Assembly: GCA_903873185.1 (NCBI GenBank)
Contig: CAIQNN010000032.1
Span: forward strand, 1-52,989
From: an uncultured Actinomycetes bacterium
GTDB lineage: Bacteria > Actinomycetota > Actinomycetes > Nanopelagicales > Nanopelagicaceae
DNA: 52,989 nt
Reading direction: 5' to 3'
In this document: positions 7,146-14,576 of the stretch, in pieces
Numbering within the stretch: the first letter of the stretch is position 1
Layout of the letters: each line of letters begins with the position of its first letter
Translations under genes and position numbers: made by a program
The notes under the pieces: model-generated
What the model was told of the DNA's origin: nothing
What the model saw: the letters and a program-made list of their open reading frames with translations, nothing else
Databases searched by the model: none

Positions 7146-8075
7146 TCAGCGCAGCAGGTAGAAAGCTTCAAGATCTTTCGCCGTCTTTTCTAGGAAATCT
7201 GCGGCGTAATGCAATGGGTCCCAGGATGCAAAGAGTGTGATGGCAAGTTCTTCGGAATTGGCCTGCTTTCTGATGGGAATTGGAATTAGACCATAACGGG
7301 GATCATCAGAACTTACACAAATCGCTTTATGAGCGGCGGCAAGTGCTTGCGAGGCGTGCGTCGATTGAGTTTCAAAAGCGATATCGCTGGACAAACCCGC
7401 TTGGGCGAAAGCGTCATCCATAATTCTGCGTACGTTGTGATTGTCATCGACGATGGCAATTGGATAACTGGAAATTTCCGCTAAGGAAACAAACTCATTT
7501 TTTGCCAAATCATGATTGCTGGGAACTTGCGCCCATATTGGTGCGGCACCAACGGTTCGAAAGCGCAGTCGAGCTGGAGGCGGGCTGGTACCAATCACAA
7601 TATCCGCCCGCCCCAGTTCCAATTCTTTATAGACCGCGTTCGGAAGACACTCTCTAATATTCGTAAGAAGACCAGCGGTTCCTGCTGCAGCGATGAATGG
7701 TGCAATTACATCGGCAACAGTTGTCGGTGGTCCGGCAATTGTGAATCGCAAACTGGTCGATGAAGTTAATGACTTCACTTTTATTTCAGCCTGGCTGGCG
7801 CGATTTAGTAAGTCTCGGGCGATTGGCACGAAAGCCACGCCGGCTGCGGTGGGGGTTAGACGCAAGCCATGATCAAATAGCGAAACCCCGAGTTGGCGTT
7901 CAAAGCGTTGTAATTGACGGGATAGGGAGGGCTGGCCAACATGAAGATCTTTTGCCGCAGCTGAGATCGAACCAAGCTCATAAATCTTCAAGAAGTAACC
8001 GACTAGGCGTAGATCCACATAGTTAGTATGCCCGATAGGCATACCAAAATGCACTACTTCTTCATAGACAGGCAT
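7146..8075 (-). CDS. LysR-family transcriptional regulator
   Basis: A 309-residue LysR protein. The winged HTH lies at about 20-80 (VGYFLKIYELGSISAAAKDL, then QPSLSRQLQRFERQLGVSLF) and a periplasmic-binding-like effector domain lies at about 108-300. It is divergent from a complete peptide-type ABC importer (8161-14576), and the usual LysR arrangement makes it the likely regulator of that operon. The start at 8075 is well supported: on the coding strand GGAGG lies 6 bases before the ATG. A second in-frame ATG eleven codons later lies in a repeat of the same GGTATGCC sequence. The effector is unknown. The gene ends 11 bp from the convergent uppS stop. Confidence 0.9.
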   Translation of the reverse strand: MPVYEEVVHFGMPIGHTNYVDLRLVGYFLKIYELGSISAAAKDLHVGQPSLSRQLQRFERQLGVSLFDHGLRLTPTAAGVAFVPIARDLLNRASQAEIKVKSLTSSTSLRFTIAGPPTTVADVIAPFIAAAGTAGLLTNIRECLPNAVYKELELGRADIVIGTSPPPARLRFRTVGAAPIWAQVPSNHDLAKNEFVSLAEISSYPIAIVDDNHNVRRIMDDAFAQAGLSSDIAFETQSTHASQALAAAHKAICVSSDDPRYGLIPIPIRKQANSEELAITLFASWDPLHYAADFLEKTAKDLEAFYLLR

Positions 8076-8077
8076 AC
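8026..8077. promoter_or_regulatory. LysR-type operator and repeated half-sites
   Basis: GTATGCC (8026-8032) and GGCATAC (8038-8044) form a perfect inverted repeat with 7 bp arms and a 5 bp spacer. It contains the T-N11-A pattern of LysR boxes. A further GGCATAC at 8071-8077 covers the start codon of the regulator. All three sites lie within or on the first codons of the LysR gene, so autorepression is likely. Activation of the divergent importer from about 80 bp away is possible. Confidence 0.55.
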
Positions 8078-8160
8078 CCCACCTCCATAAACTCGTGCCA
8101 ACGTAAGGCCCAAACTCCCATTGCGCCCTGCACCCTCGAACCAGTTAGGAAGGTTGTCGG

Positions 8161-9738
8161 ATGAGAACAATCGAAAATTTGAAGAGTTCCAAATCCAAAT
8201 TATTGGCAATTATTGCCAGCCTCGCTTTAGGTGCTACGGCACTTTTGGTTCCACAGGCTGCATCTGCTGCCACAGTATTAAAAGTTGCTACCTCTGCTGC
8301 AGTAACTACCTGGGATCCATTTCAGTCTTTCTCGACTGAGGCCTTTTATATGACAAATATTTACGAACCACTTCTTTGGAAGAACGCCGATGGGGATACC
8401 CCCGAGTATTCACCGGGGATTGCTTCTTCGTGGAGTTCATCTGCTGATGGAAAAACTTGGACCTTCAAGATTCGCTCAGGTGCAACTTTCCATGATGGCA
8501 CTGTTGTCGATGCGGCCGCAGTAAAGGCTAGTTTGGAACAGTCGAAAGCAAATGGTGGCGCCGGATTTATTTGGGATCCAGTAAAAACTTTTGCCGCACC
8601 TAGCGCAGATACGCTGGTGATGAATCTTTCCTACGCCGCCCCAATGGATCTAATCGCATCTTCGACTTACGGAGCATGGATCGTTAGTCCCAAGGCTTTG
8701 GCAGCTGTTCTAAAAGATGCTAAATACTTTGAGTCAGGCGTTGATGGCGGAACTGGCCCTTATGCAATTCAAAGCTATAAAGCGGGAAGTGAAGTTGTTC
8801 TCGCTACGTATGCAAAATATTGGGGAGCTAAACCTGCCTATGGAATCGTTGATACCCTCATAACTTCTGATGGAATCACAGCTCAGCAAATGATGACTTC
8901 AGGTCAAGTCGATTGGGCGACCAATATCCCATTAACCAGCATCCCTACTTTGAAAAAGAATTCGAAGTACTTGGTTAAGGTCTACAAGTCACCATTTAAC
9001 TATGTTGGCTATTTCAATACTTTGCGAGCTCCACTAAATAATCCTGCCGTTCGCAAGGCGTTGTCCATGGCGATCCCTTACGCAGATATCGTGAGTATTG
9101 GCGGACAAGGATTCGGTACCCAAGCTCGAGGTCCAGTACCAGCGGGTATCTACCCATATAGTTCGACCACACCTCAATACAAGAAGGCGTTAGCAACGGC
9201 AAAAACCTTATTGGCCCGAGCTGGAGTAAAGGATCTGCATATAAAGATCACATATGCGTCCGAGAACTCAGCGGAGGCTCGTTTTGTTCCGTTGATCCAA
9301 AGTTCCTTTGCTTCCATCGGAGTAACTGCTGATGTCCAGGCTATTCTCTTTAACCAACAGTGGTCCGCTGCGAAGAAGGATCCTGCCAATGCGCAAGACC
9401 TCTTTATCGTGAAGTACTGGCCTACTTATAGCGATGCTGGAGTAGACAATCTTTACTCGTTATTCCATAGCAGCGCCAAGCCATTCTTCAACTTGAGCTA
9501 CTGGAAGAATACGCAGTACGACTCACTAATTGATGATGCAATTGTCCTTAGTGGTTCCGATAAGGCTGGCGCACAAAAGCTTTACAGCCAGGCTATGCAG
9601 ATTCTGTACGATCAAGCGCCAGGCGTCTATCTGTATGACGAAGCCCAAGTCAGTGTTGTGCCAAAGAAACTTAGTATTCCTAAGTACAACATCAACTATC
9701 CGTTCTCGGCATTTTTTGCGGGGATCAAAGCTAATTAA
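8161..9738 (+). CDS. Extracellular solute-binding protein of a peptide-type ABC importer (SBP family 5)
   Basis: A 525-residue substrate-binding protein of the DppA/OppA class, which captures peptide-like ligands outside the membrane and hands them to the permeases. It has a Sec signal peptide: a basic start (about residues 1-13), a hydrophobic core (LLAIIASLALGATALLV) and a likely cut after ASA near residue 36. There is no lipobox Cys, unusual for a monoderm-type binding protein. Family features follow: TWDPFQS, ADGKTWTFKIRSGATFHDGT, GTGPYAI and the NPAVRKALSMAI segment. It is the first gene of the operon, with GGAAGG before the ATG. Ligand specificity cannot be predicted; the fused hydrolase at the end of the operon suggests an amide- or ester-bearing ligand. 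Confidence 0.92.
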   Translation: MRTIENLKSSKSKLLAIIASLALGATALLVPQAASAATVLKVATSAAVTTWDPFQSFSTEAFYMTNIYEPLLWKNADGDTPEYSPGIASSWSSSADGKTWTFKIRSGATFHDGTVVDAAAVKASLEQSKANGGAGFIWDPVKTFAAPSADTLVMNLSYAAPMDLIASSTYGAWIVSPKALAAVLKDAKYFESGVDGGTGPYAIQSYKAGSEVVLATYAKYWGAKPAYGIVDTLITSDGITAQQMMTSGQVDWATNIPLTSIPTLKKNSKYLVKVYKSPFNYVGYFNTLRAPLNNPAVRKALSMAIPYADIVSIGGQGFGTQARGPVPAGIYPYSSTTPQYKKALATAKTLLARAGVKDLHIKITYASENSAEARFVPLIQSSFASIGVTADVQAILFNQQWSAAKKDPANAQDLFIVKYWPTYSDAGVDNLYSLFHSSAKPFFNLSYWKNTQYDSLIDDAIVLSGSDKAGAQKLYSQAMQILYDQAPGVYLYDEAQVSVVPKKLSIPKYNINYPFSAFFAGIKAN

Positions 9739-9768
9739 CTTCTAGAGTTACACCCGAGTGGACAAGGT

Positions 9769-9811
9769 AGTTCAGCTGAACTGGTAATAAAAGCACTGGT
9801 TCAGCTGAACT
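9769..9811. repeat. Two identical palindromes between binding-protein and permease genes
   Basis: AGTTCAGCTGAACT (9769-9782) is a perfect 14 bp palindrome. GTTCAGCTGAAC (9799-9810, with a following T) repeats it 29 bp further on, centre to centre. Because each copy is palindromic, the two can also pair with each other into one long hairpin with a 16-base loop followed by TTT. This could be a paired operator, or an RNA processing or partial-termination element that keeps binding-protein message above permease message. Confidence 0.6.
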
Positions 9812-9839
9812 TTGTAACATTTAGCTTAGGAGATTCCTC

Positions 9840-10853
9840 TTGATTCGGTTGTTGTGGAAGCGGCTTACTTCGGCATCGCTGGTGCTGCTAGCAGCTAGTT
9901 TCTTCACCTTCATTTTGGCCCGCATTGTGCCCAGCGATCCGGCACTTGCCTACGTTGGCCCAAAATCAACGGCGGCAGACGAGGTCAGAATTCGAACGAT
10001 GTTGGGACTTGATCAACCAATACCAGTTCAATATTTTAAATATTTAAAGGACGTAATCTCCGGGAATTGGGGATATTCCTTGTCAACGAAACAACCAGTG
10101 CTTCATGAAATCGCAAACCGGTTGCCACCAACTATTGAATTGATTGCGGTTGCCGTCGGGTTTGCGATTATTTTCGGCCTAATCTTTGGAATGCTGGCTG
10201 CCAGATTTCCGCATTCTGTTGGTGCTGCGCTAATAAGAGTACTTTCGATAGCGGGAATTTCAGTTCCTGCATTCTGGCTCGGCTTGTTACTTCAGCTTCT
10301 CTTTGTGGGGCGTTTAGGTTGGTTTCCCGCAACCGGAGAATTTGATTTAGATATTAAATTTACCAATCCGATTCATCACATAACAGGGTTCCCATTATTC
10401 GATGCTGCGATAACGGGGAATTGGGTCGCAGTTACTAGCGGACTTCAACATATTGTTCTACCGGCGCTGACACTTGCGGCGTACAGCTTTGGCTTGATCG
10501 CAAGAATGTCCAGGGCAAATCTGCTTGAAGTTTTTTCGCAGGATTACATCAAGGTGGCCAGAGCTTATGGGGTGTCAGAACGGGTCGTTCTGTTTAAATT
10601 GGCGCTGAAGAACGCTATTCCACCCGTGATCACCGTGACCGGCTTATCAACTGCTTATTTGATAACCGGCACTTTCTTTGTCGAGCAAGTCTACAACTGG
10701 CCAGGAATCGGAGGCTTCGCCGCGAATGCTCTAATTAGCGTCGATTACCCGGCGATTATGGGGATCACTCTGCTGGGCGCTGCTGGATATTTAACGATCA
10801 ATTTTATAGTTGACCTAATTCTCACAAAAATCGATCCAAGGATCGAAGCCTGA
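9840..10853 (+). CDS. ABC importer permease, DppB/OppB type
   Basis: An integral membrane permease of 337 residues for the peptide-type importer. The N-terminal helix (RLTSASLVLLAASFFTFILA) is followed by the external loop typical of DppB (PSDPALAY, LGLDQPIPVQY, NWGYSL). The binding-protein-dependent transport domain follows, with the EAA coupling loop near residues 225-245 (SQDYIKVARAYGVSE). It starts with TTG at 9840 behind a TTAGGAG ribosome site. The stop overlaps the ATG of the next permease by one base, so the two are translationally coupled. The substrate is unknown. Confidence 0.92.
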   Translation: MIRLLWKRLTSASLVLLAASFFTFILARIVPSDPALAYVGPKSTAADEVRIRTMLGLDQPIPVQYFKYLKDVISGNWGYSLSTKQPVLHEIANRLPPTIELIAVAVGFAIIFGLIFGMLAARFPHSVGAALIRVLSIAGISVPAFWLGLLLQLLFVGRLGWFPATGEFDLDIKFTNPIHHITGFPLFDAAITGNWVAVTSGLQHIVLPALTLAAYSFGLIARMSRANLLEVFSQDYIKVARAYGVSERVVLFKLALKNAIPPVITVTGLSTAYLITGTFFVEQVYNWPGIGGFAANALISVDYPAIMGITLLGAAGYLTINFIVDLILTKIDPRIEA

Positions 10854-11719
10854 TGGATACCAAGGCGATGAAAATCAAAGTAGCGAAACTTTCGTGGTTA
10901 GTGGCAAATCCATATGCCATCGTCGCAAGTTCTATTCTTACGATCTTCTTAGCTTGTGCTGCCTTTAGTTCTTGGTTGGCGCCTTATCCAAAAGAAGGTG
11001 CCGGCGCGCCAAATGTTGCTCATACTCTGATCGGACCGAGCCGACTGCACTTACTTGGCACAGATGAACTTGGTCGTGACCTATTAAGTCGAATCATCTT
11101 CGGTGCCCGACCAGCGCTCTTAACATCTTTGACGGTGGTTGGAACGGCGGCGCTTGTAGGGACGCTTCTCGGTTTGATTGCTGGATTTCGAGGCGGTCTC
11201 ATCGACGCGGCGGTCATGCGCCTAAGCGAGCTCTTTCTCTCCTTCCCGCCTCTCCTACTTTCACTAGTAGCTGTTTCACTTCTCGGTCCAGGGCTGCGAA
11301 ATGCCTTGATCGCACTAATTGTTTCTTGGTGGCCTTGGTATGCACGATTGATCAGAAATGAATCCCGATCAATCAAGAGTCAACCATTTGTTGAGATCGC
11401 TCAAGCGATGGGCGTCTCTTCTTGGAAGATCATGACGCGTCACTTATTGCGAAACATAACTTCTTCACTAATTGTGCAGATCGCGGCCGATCTTGGAACC
11501 GTGATCCTTGCTGCCGGCTCTTTAGCCTTTATCGGCTTAGGAGCGCAGCCACCTTCCTCGGATTGGGGGCTCATGGTGGCGCAAGGGCGAACTGTTATTT
11601 TTGATCAATGGTGGATATCGACATTTGCCGGACTAGCCATTTTCATCGTTGTCCTCGCCTTCAATTTGTTGGGCGATGAACTTCGCGACTATTTGGATCC
11701 TAGGAAGCGGGCCAAATGA
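10853..11719 (+). CDS. ABC importer permease, DppC/OppC type
   Basis: The second integral membrane permease, 288 residues, with an N-terminal anchor helix (ANPYAIVASSILTIFLA), the family's HLLGTDELGRDLLSRIIFGAR segment and five further predicted helices. The EAA-type loop is FVEIAQAMGVSSWKIMTRHL, near 180-200. It would form a heterodimer with the upstream permease. It overlaps that gene by 1 bp and the following ATPase by 4 bp (ATGA), showing tight operon structure. DppC proteins are usually about 280-300 residues, so this one is complete. Confidence 0.93.
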   Translation: MDTKAMKIKVAKLSWLVANPYAIVASSILTIFLACAAFSSWLAPYPKEGAGAPNVAHTLIGPSRLHLLGTDELGRDLLSRIIFGARPALLTSLTVVGTAALVGTLLGLIAGFRGGLIDAAVMRLSELFLSFPPLLLSLVAVSLLGPGLRNALIALIVSWWPWYARLIRNESRSIKSQPFVEIAQAMGVSSWKIMTRHLLRNITSSLIVQIAADLGTVILAAGSLAFIGLGAQPPSSDWGLMVAQGRTVIFDQWWISTFAGLAIFIVVLAFNLLGDELRDYLDPRKRAK

Positions 11720-12663
11720 GCGCAGTTCTAACGGTCAAAAATCTGGCAGTAGATTTCTACGCTAAGGGAGCGATTGTTAACTCCCCACTTCGTGGAATCG
11801 ATTTTGATATTGATTCAGGCAAGACACTCGGGATCGTCGGTGAAACCGGCTGCGGAAAGACATTATCGGCGCTAGCGATCATGGGATTACTGCCAGAAAA
11901 TGCGGTTCAAACAGGGGAGATCTCTCTTTCTGGAGTTGGGAAACTGAGCAGCGCAAGTATGAAAAGCGTTCGAGGCAAAGAGATTTCGATGATCTTCCAA
12001 AATCCTCATTCTGCTTTAAATCCAACTTTTTCAATTAGAGATCAACTCAAATACGTGGCTCAATCTTGCGAGATTCAAAAAAGTGAAATCGAAAGCACCT
12101 CAAGGGAGGGGCTACATTCAGTCGGTCTTCGCGATGTGGATCGCATCCTGAATTCATACCCCCACGAACTTTCAGGTGGAATGCTTCAACGCTGCATGAT
12201 TGCGATGTCCCTATTATCAAAGCCAAAGTTGCTGATTGCCGATGAACCAACGACGGCTCTTGATGCCACCGTAGGGCGCCAGGTTTTGGACCTACTTCTC
12301 TCGCTTCAAGCCCAAAACGGGTTTGCCATGCTCTTCATCTCTCACGATGTTGGCGCGGTATCTCATGTTGCTGATCAGATTTCAGTTCTTTACGCCGGGA
12401 AAGTTGTAGAAAATGGTCCTTCCAGTTCACTTTTAGATTCTCCTCGGCATCCCTACACCCGCGGCTTATTTGGTGCGGTGCCGAGCGTGAAGGTGCCCAG
12501 AGGAGAATTGGTTGCCATCCCGGGGGCCGTCCCATTGGTCACTCTTGGAATTTCTGGTTGTGCCTTTTCTACGAGATGCACTTTGAGCGATGGCGCTTGC
12601 GACACGGTGCCACCCTCGGTTGAAGTGCATGGTCATCGAGTGGCTTGCTGGAAGGTGAGCTGA
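11716..12663 (+). CDS. ABC importer ATPase, DppD/OppD type
   Basis: First ATPase of the importer, 315 residues. Walker A GETGCGKT (about 46-53), Q-loop FQNPHSALNPTF, signature LSGGM with MLQRCMIAM (about 153-163), Walker B LLIADEPTTALD and the switch His in FISHDVG are all present. The C-terminal oligopeptide-transporter extension carries a four-Cys cluster (GCAFSTRC, GAC, ACW), as in DppD-type ATPases where an iron-sulfur cluster has been reported. The gene overlaps the permease by 4 bp, and its TGA overlaps the ATG of the fused ATPase-hydrolase. It should pair with the N-terminal half of that next protein to make the ATPase heterodimer. Confidence 0.93.
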   Translation: MSAVLTVKNLAVDFYAKGAIVNSPLRGIDFDIDSGKTLGIVGETGCGKTLSALAIMGLLPENAVQTGEISLSGVGKLSSASMKSVRGKEISMIFQNPHSALNPTFSIRDQLKYVAQSCEIQKSEIESTSREGLHSVGLRDVDRILNSYPHELSGGMLQRCMIAMSLLSKPKLLIADEPTTALDATVGRQVLDLLLSLQAQNGFAMLFISHDVGAVSHVADQISVLYAGKVVENGPSSSLLDSPRHPYTRGLFGAVPSVKVPRGELVAIPGAVPLVTLGISGCAFSTRCTLSDGACDTVPPSVEVHGHRVACWKVS

Positions 12664-14576
12664 TGAGCCGAGAAGTACTGAATCTAAAAGGTGTTACCAA
12701 AATATTTCCTGCCTCCAGGAGGAGCGGTGAAGGTTTTACTGCGGTGAGCGATGTTTCATTTTCGCTTATCGCTGGTGAGGTTTTTGGGTTGGTAGGGGAG
12801 TCTGGTTCAGGCAAGAGCACATTAGCCCGCTGTGCATTTGGTATCGCGCCAATTTCGAGTGGTCATGTTTCTATTCTCGGGCAAAAATTAGAGGATGTTT
12901 CAGCAAAGGATTTAAGACTCTTAAAAAGTGAGCTCGGCTTTGTTTTCCAAGATCCGATTGGTTCCTTGAATCCGAAATTGCGAGTCGCAGAAATAATTGC
13001 TGAGCCACTAGAACTTCGCAAGCTGCCCGCTGCCGAAATAGCAGCTCGAGTAAGTTATTTAATTGAGCGAGTTGGCCTGACTCAAAGCCACTTAGAGCGC
13101 AAGCGACATGAGCTATCCGGAGGTCAGTGCCAAAGAGTTGCCATTGCGAGAGCGCTGGCGACCAACCCAAAATTGATTCTTTTGGATGAACCAACTTCAT
13201 CGCTAGATTTATCAGTACAAGCGCAAATTCTTAACTTACTAGAAGAATTACGACGGGAATTTAATCTCACTTATCTGATAATTTCCCACAATTTGGATGT
13301 CATTTCGCATATGAGTGATCGCATGGCCGTCATGAAGGATGGCAAGATCGTTGAAATGGGTGGGACTCAAGAGTTATTGTCCAACCCAACTAACTCCTAT
13401 ACCAAAGAATTGATCAACTCTTACAGTGCTGACTTCGCTGTAAGCGCGAAGTTACCAAAGAATTTCAATTTGGATGCTTGGCAAGATGCCCCGCTGAATC
13501 GTTGGGCTTTTCAAAATGTTGAACTTTTTATACCGACACGAATAATTTCTGCGCATCCCGATGCTCGTCCTGTGGAGCATACGTTGGAAATTAAGAGCTA
13601 TCCGGAGGTAGCTGATCTGATTTCAGAACTTGCAACTGATGCGATTTTGGTAATGAACCGAGGGAAGATTCAATTCGAGGAATACCTTCATGGAATGAGT
13701 GCCGAATCGCCACACTTGCTTCAGTCGGTTTCCAAATCGATCCTTGGTGGTTTATATGCGAACTTATCGGCTAGTGGTCAGGTTGATTCCGATCTTCAAG
13801 TAAGCGATTACCTGCCCGAACTTTCGGCGAGCGGTTTTGGGGACGCTACGGTTCAAAACCTGCTTGATATGACGGCCGCAGTTAATTTCTCCGAGGATTA
13901 CCATGATCCCGCTTCAGAGATTGCTCAACTTGACCGCGCCGCGGGATGGCGAAACCCGGCTCCAGGAGCTGCGGTTCACATCAGAGAGTTTCTAGGCTCC
14001 GTGAAAAAGAGCGGGGAACATGGAACGCATTTCCAATATTGCTCGGCTAATACCGATCTATTGGCCTGGATTGCCGAGGAAGTTACAGGTGTTTCATACG
14101 AGAGCTTGATCTCTAAAGTTATTTGGCAACCCTTGAAAGCCATGAATGATGCGACGATTACGGTAGATGCCTTGGGTGCACCTCTGGCCAATGGTGGTAT
14201 TTCAACGACAGCTCGCGACTTAGCTCGATTTGGGGATGCGATACTCAATAACGGCGTGGTTGACGGGGTTCAAGTGATTCCGGCCAAGTGGATCGCGGCT
14301 ACTTTCGCTGGCGCCAGTCCTAGCGTTATCTCGCCCCAATATTTGCAGCAGTTACATCCTGGTGGCTCGTATCGAAATCAATGGTGGATAACAAATAGTG
14401 CCCGACACGAAATTTATGGTGTTGGGATTTATGGCCAATATTTATGGCTAGATCCAATTAGCCAGACGGTAATTGTTAAATTTTCTTCCCTGCCAGTTGC
14501 GACCGATGCCAATCATTCGGTGAAACACATGCAGTTATTTCGCCACATTTCATCGAGCTTCCCAAGGCTTAATTAG
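12663..14576 (+). CDS. Fusion of a DppF-type ABC ATPase with a beta-lactamase-fold serine hydrolase
   Basis: A 637-residue two-domain protein. Residues 1-255 are a complete ABC ATPase: Walker A GESGSGKST (45-53), Gln96, LSGGQ (151-155), Walker B LILLDEP (171-177) and His209. Residues about 315-637 form a class C beta-lactamase / NylB-like hydrolase: nucleophile Ser355 and Lys358 in QSVSK, the Tyr motif YCSAN (459-463), LANGGISTTARDL near 508 and GIYGQYLWLDP near 588. No signal peptide or membrane segment separates them, so the hydrolase should be cytoplasmic. The usual DppF C-terminal extension is lost. I chose ATG 12663, behind GGAAGGTGAG and overlapping the previous TGA, over TTG 12645. The expected role is import of an amide-, ester- or lactam-containing compound coupled to its hydrolysis; the substrate is unknown. 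Confidence 0.9.
   Translation: MSREVLNLKGVTKIFPASRRSGEGFTAVSDVSFSLIAGEVFGLVGESGSGKSTLARCAFGIAPISSGHVSILGQKLEDVSAKDLRLLKSELGFVFQDPIGSLNPKLRVAEIIAEPLELRKLPAAEIAARVSYLIERVGLTQSHLERKRHELSGGQCQRVAIARALATNPKLILLDEPTSSLDLSVQAQILNLLEELRREFNLTYLIISHNLDVISHMSDRMAVMKDGKIVEMGGTQELLSNPTNSYTKELINSYSADFAVSAKLPKNFNLDAWQDAPLNRWAFQNVELFIPTRIISAHPDARPVEHTLEIKSYPEVADLISELATDAILVMNRGKIQFEEYLHGMSAESPHLLQSVSKSILGGLYANLSASGQVDSDLQVSDYLPELSASGFGDATVQNLLDMTAAVNFSEDYHDPASEIAQLDRAAGWRNPAPGAAVHIREFLGSVKKSGEHGTHFQYCSANTDLLAWIAEEVTGVSYESLISKVIWQPLKAMNDATITVDALGAPLANGGISTTARDLARFGDAILNNGVVDGVQVIPAKWIAATFAGASPSVISPQYLQQLHPGGSYRNQWWITNSARHEIYGVGIYGQYLWLDPISQTVIVKFSSLPVATDANHSVKHMQLFRHISSSFPRLN

Follow-up and report, generated by a model that had tools for sequence, protein, structure and literature searches.

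The last gene of an importer operon in a stretch of 52,989 nucleotides from an uncultured member of the Nanopelagicaceae (hereafter the window) raises the question of whether an importer ATPase and a serine hydrolase are made there as a single chain, and what such a chain would do for the cell. The operon (8161-14576) comprises five genes in the order solute-binding protein (SBP), permease, permease, DppD, and fusion, with a divergent LysR gene in front (Table 1). The Dpp/Opp/Nik-type gene set is complete, since one family 5 SBP, two BPD permeases, and two ATPases lie in one operon, and the stop codon of DppD overlaps the start codon of the fusion gene in TGATG. The NBD motifs of DppD (GETGCGKT, LSGGM, ADE, and SHD) are intact, and its C-terminal region (window 12559-12648) contains C282, C288, C295, and C311, which we take to resemble the cysteine cluster of the Dpp/Opp ATPases. 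In the gap between LysR and SBP (window 8050-8165), the block AGACAGGCATA is kept in the same gap of L049-L059, and an ATGC-N7-GCAT palindrome of the T-N11-A type, present there in several loci, is a candidate LysR operator.

Table 1. Features of the importer operon and of the fusion gene in the window.
Feature	Position	Strand	Basis or remark
LysR-family regulator, divergent from operon	7146..8075	-	PF00126, PF03466
Family 5 SBP, Sec-type signal peptide	8161..9738	+	PF00496, E 1.2e-65
DppB-type permease	9840..10853	+	PF00528, PF19300
DppC/NikC-type permease	10853..11719	+	PF00528; NCBIfam Opp2C/NikC-like
DppD-type ATPase partner	11716..12663	+	PF00005, PF08352; oligo_HPY and C-terminal cysteines present
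Fusion gene	12663-14576	+	single uninterrupted ORF, 637 aa, ATPase + hydrolase
Fused DppF/NikE-type ATPase domain, residues 1-255	12663..13427	+	domain matches, ATPase tree, model
Linker, ~residues 256-269, short, variable	13428..13469	+	alignment; low model confidence at 256-261
NylB-type serine hydrolase domain, residues 270-637 plus stop	13470..14576	+	S355/K358/Y459, D424/N510 present

In Pfam, the fusion protein matches PF00005 at residues 29-179 (E 2.6e-32) and PF00144 at residues 325-612 (E 8.6e-33), which bears out the preliminary description of a complete importer ATPase and a complete NylB-like hydrolase in one chain. Every NBD motif is intact in the ATPase half, including Walker A (GESGSGKST, residues 45-53), LSGGQ (151-155), Walker B, and H209, and the hydrolase half carries SVSK (355-358), Y459, and GIYGQ (588-592); the Walker A, LSGGQ, H209, S355, K358, Y459, and GIYGQ positions are those originally assigned. 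The N-terminus of the hydrolase half corresponds to the N-terminal stretch of NylB (LDSWQ-P-NRWAF), so that this half represents the whole enzyme rather than a fragment. Neither a signal peptide nor a membrane helix is evident in the fusion protein (best 19-residue hydropathy, 1.45), in line with the export signal having been reported as missing. That the hydrolase might also be translated on its own was considered and rejected, as no start codon accompanied by a ribosome site is conserved within the linker of the fusion loci; the fusion is therefore most likely made as one chain. In the AlphaFold2 model (11 fusion sequences; mean pLDDT 83), both domains are well formed and the linker is weak, and the relative placement of the domains is not fixed by the model (pTM 0.58). 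The best Foldseek matches of the hydrolase half are NylB chains, DppF/OppF chains are matched by the ATPase half, and none of the PDB chains among the matches listed spans both domains.

The best PDB sequence match of the hydrolase half is also NylB, the 6-aminohexanoate-dimer hydrolase that cuts nylon oligomers (PDB 1WYB/1WYC; PF00144), with residues 270-616 aligned to 23-371 of the chain (E 1.4e-84) at 42% identity over 341 columns, which amounts to a whole-length match. The NylB residues S112, K115, Y170, D181, R187, Y215, N266, W331, I345, and Q348 (1WYC numbering) are all matched in the window. S355, K358, and Y459 correspond to Ser112, Lys115, and Tyr215, forming the Ser-Lys-Tyr set, and Y413, D424, N510, and I589 correspond to Tyr170, Asp181, Asn266, and Ile345 of the high-activity form. 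The substitutions G181D and H266N are linked to raised amide activity. Both are substitutions in the engineered nylon enzyme NylB-DNY, and NylB acts in an exo-type manner, cutting linear oligomers at the N-terminus (PMC11809917); Ser112, Lys115, Asp181, Tyr215, and Ile345 are listed as reaction sites of NylB in a review (PMC11052090). Given the retained NylB residues and this exo-type action, the enzyme would be expected to cut an amide bond in a small, linear molecule that bears a free amine, and ester cleavage is possible. NylB-type enzymes are promiscuous, esterase activity included, so that the bond cleaved by the fusion hydrolase is uncertain. The AmpC signature consists of Y-x-N as the second motif and K-T-G as the third; both are absent from the window protein, which, like NylB, has Y459-C-S-A-N and GIYGQ at these places. 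Of the initial label, class C beta-lactamase/NylB-like, the NylB amidase group stands and the classic class C assignment does not.

The full-length fusion occurs in 12 of the 296 genomes of the window's family, the window included, and by label these genomes fall into five genera. When 395 genomes of the class and 396 of the phylum were sampled with the hydrolase profile, fusions came up only in members of the window's own family, and the named loci of other groups contained none; the domain architecture, proposed for a search across the Actinobacteria, thus recurs within the family and is missing from the sampled genomes beyond it. The fusions are 55-58% identical to the window protein over the full length. 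The fusion is the last operon gene in all 12 genomes, DppD precedes it in 11 of the 11 other loci, and the permeases, SBP, and LysR follow upstream in the same order wherever the contigs reach that far. Close pairs of fusions give dN/dS values of about 0.03-0.05 for the ATPase half and 0.07-0.13 for the hydrolase half, indicating that the fusion is under purifying selection. The NylB catalytic and substrate-site set is complete in 11 of the 12 fusions, and Asp181 and Asn266 are absent from more distant relatives in the family. The trio S355/K358/Y459, on which the preliminary description relied, is accordingly retained in all fusions but one, in which the lysine is lost. In that fusion (L056:1059-2978, G165), SVSM replaces SVSK, changing the catalytic Lys to Met with the remaining active site intact, and the protein may be inactive or regulatory, or the change may be a base error of the MAG. 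At L051 (G102, contig C69), the operon region is 81-85% identical to that of G281, compared with 67-72% for other genes of the two genera, and this contig may be mis-binned or recently transferred. Another MAG (L087, CAMBDL010000007.1) was deposited as Streptomyces griseus; by sequence it belongs to the window's small-genome family, and the deposited name is likely wrong.

Outside the family, an unfused orthologous operon is present in Arthrobacter sp. HY1533 (L127), a Cryobacterium MAG (L100), and the complete genome G644 (L201). The gene order is the same, namely LysR, SBP, two permeases, DppD, a short ATPase, and NylB, but the last two are adjacent separate genes. Compared with the window, the SBPs are 74-77% identical in the fusion loci and 55-60% in the unfused operons, and LysR occupies the same place in the far-reaching fusion loci and in the three unfused operons. 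The ATPase tree places the three ATPases of the unfused operons as sister to the fused ones (support 90/85). The hydrolase tree unites the fusions with four standalone enzymes in one clade (100/100), which sits inside the NylB clade together with the three operon enzymes and Arthrobacter/Leucobacter enzymes; two of the latter, when checked, were 72% and 84% identical to NylB. Adjacent genes in the unfused operons and sister ATPases are most simply explained by an operon that already held importer and hydrolase genes, two neighbours of which were then joined into the fusion. Separate genes, raised earlier as a sign of a false junction, do exist, as the unfused sister state in orthologous operons of other families, and no break in the linker was seen.

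The oligo_HPY extension is present on DppD and absent from the fused ATPase and from its unfused orthologues, the latter ending 21-23 residues past the aligned ATPase region. Since the unfused ATPases stop just as early, the loss of oligo_HPY most likely predates the fusion, and the original idea that the hydrolase replaces the C-terminal extension of DppF was rejected. NikE-type ATPases likewise are not known to carry oligo_HPY. No extra catabolic gene that would point to the substrate was found conserved beside the operons; the next-door genes, a flavin oxidoreductase in Arthrobacter HY1533 and a class III aminotransferase in G644, are not shared.

The four standalone hydrolases of the fusion clade belong to genomes of another genus (L060:7239-8366, L061:5695-6813, L062:11843-12970, and L063:7989-9116). 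They occupy the chromosomal slot of the window operon, recO-uppS-[ ]-fur-zip-glyS, with the hydrolase start overlapping the uppS stop and no transporter beside the gene. In genomes of the same genus, the uppS-fur slot is empty (G002) or holds an unrelated gene (G001). The separation of the fusion clade from the standalone enzymes has a support of 62/82, and trees with the standalone enzymes nested give AU p values of 0.26 and 0.39; these hydrolases may thus descend from the fusion as remnants, represent its ancestral state, or form a separate branch. Their presence in four genomes with no transporter beside the gene argues that the enzyme is useful on its own.

The probable function of the operon is that of an importer with a tethered NylB-type amidase, in which a small amide- or peptide-like cargo would be imported and then cleaved in the cytosol on the transporter. 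The SBP would capture such a compound, the DppD/DppF-type motor would drive it through the two permeases, and the amidase, tethered at the cytosolic face by the short linker, would cleave it by Ser-Lys-Tyr acyl-enzyme chemistry, yielding a product usable by the cell. The direction of import and the class of cargo are those suggested by the importer family, and amide hydrolysis is predicted from the NylB residues of the hydrolase half. The tether would presumably be of benefit by raising local capture or fixing the stoichiometry. Against this function count the promiscuity of NylB-type enzymes, the Met of the L056 fusion, the four standalone hydrolases, and the loose relative placement of the two domains in the model. 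The proposal that entry is physically tied to hydrolysis holds at the gene level, where a conserved single chain ends a complete importer operon.

It is quite possible that the fusion is near-neutral, and that the hydrolase is simply a co-expressed catabolic enzyme with a fixed stoichiometry, with neither channelling nor allosteric coupling. The unfused operons of the same content presumably work, the linker is short, variable, and of low model confidence, and IrtAB deprived of its fused enzyme domain keeps a comparable ATPase activity (PMC10246721). Such neutrality sits poorly with a fusion that is intact in 12 of 12 carriers, including divergent ones (55% identity), and with the absence of any re-split version of the operon among the 296 family genomes. 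A closer coupling, with the amidase at the importer exit receiving the cargo and cleaving it before it can diffuse or leak back, and with hydrolysis possibly coupled to the ATP cycle, is doubtful. If true, such an import-and-cleave machine would be a natural setting for the NylB fold, the ancestral role of which is debated.

An improbable alternative is that the hydrolase domain serves mainly as a sensor of substrate or product that regulates the transporter. Its position is that at which other importer ATPases bear regulatory domains, as known from the family, and the L056 fusion is without the catalytic Lys, but the complete NylB set in 11 of 12 fusions, together with the occurrence of the same hydrolase gene unfused beside the ATPase and alone, favours an enzyme. 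Very little probability attaches to the import of a toxic cargo (for instance, a beta-lactam or a peptide antibiotic) for inactivation or activation rather than as food: PF00144 does include beta-lactamases, but the nearest relatives are NylB amidases and not AmpC, importing an antibiotic for destruction would be costly, and the genes beside those of the NylB clade (nucleobase permease and amidohydrolase) look catabolic. It is hardly credible that the ATPase domain serves the enzyme rather than the transporter, like PhnK on C-P lyase. PhnK chains do appear when the ATPase half is compared with solved structures, yet the gene closes an operon that also encodes SBP, two permeases, and DppD, and its ATPase groups with those of transporters from operons of this type. 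A mistake in assembly or sequencing, conceivable for a window from a 65-contig assembly, is refuted, as is chance read-through, by the same full-length fusion in 11 other family assemblies from several sampling projects, the independent check that had been proposed for the single chain.

The tethered importer and amidase can be compared with several known systems. Like the window hydrolase, NylB has no signal peptide, but it is a free enzyme. E. coli DppBCDF (8Z1V) and OppBCDF (8Z21) and M. tuberculosis OppABCD (8J5Q) share the SBP, two permeases, and two ATPases, and the fused ATPase matches DppF/OppF chains, whereas the DppF-like ATPase of the window has no oligo_HPY and bears an enzyme. The closest working precedent is the mycobacterial IrtAB, in which a cytosolic enzyme domain fused to the importer acts on the arriving siderophore (PMC10246721); IrtAB differs in its exporter fold and in having an FAD-binding domain for siderophore reduction at the N-terminal end of IrtA, and the proteins are unrelated. 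At the operon level, the nearest precedent is E. coli ddpXABCDF (PMC8743547), in which a Dpp-type importer is encoded together with a hydrolase that acts on its cargo, but as separate polypeptides, with DdpX being a zinc dipeptidase (D-Ala-D-Ala). In the open literature, with most subscription journals outside the search, no ATPase/beta-lactamase-fold fusion and no Dpp-type importer ATPase bearing a hydrolase for its cargo were found described. An importer with a cargo-processing enzyme is thus already known, and the Dpp-type ATPase and NylB-type hydrolase in a single, conserved chain are a new variation. The fusion provides a concrete model for import-coupled catabolism in small-genome bacteria. 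Furthermore, close relatives of NylB, the textbook nylon enzyme, here share operons with uptake systems, so that the role of NylB-type enzymes before nylon becomes directly testable through the ligand of the operon's SBP.

NylB-type genes also lie beside uptake genes elsewhere. In Arthrobacter and Microbacteriaceae (L101, L108, L112, L120, and L124), a NylB orthologue directly follows an NCS1 nucleobase-type permease, with an amidohydrolase gene after it in L108, a neighbourhood that hints at what NylB-type enzymes do in nature. An amino-acid permease gene is located beside a NylB-type gene in Microbacterium. In the window's family, a distant NylB-like gene with Asp181 and Asn266 replaced directly follows a Pot-type ABC operon (L066, L067, and L068) containing an ATPase, two permeases, and an SBP_bac_8-type binding protein. 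NylB-like genes are also adjacent to a Pot-type binding-protein gene in Mesorhizobium and to an ABC ATPase, judged from sequence to be of the amino-acid type, on a Paraburkholderia plasmid. On Rhizobiaceae plasmids, a Dpp-type importer and LysR are accompanied by a different PF00144-like hydrolase (~25% identical). From this recurrence, the pairing of import with a PF00144-type hydrolase seems to have arisen repeatedly, the single chain being the special feature here. In L220:4336-11952 (A. fabrum C58 plasmid At) and L221, the Dpp-type operon ends in the different serine hydrolase, with LysR; this pairing of importer and hydrolase is an independent one, and tannase/feruloyl-esterase genes lie close by.
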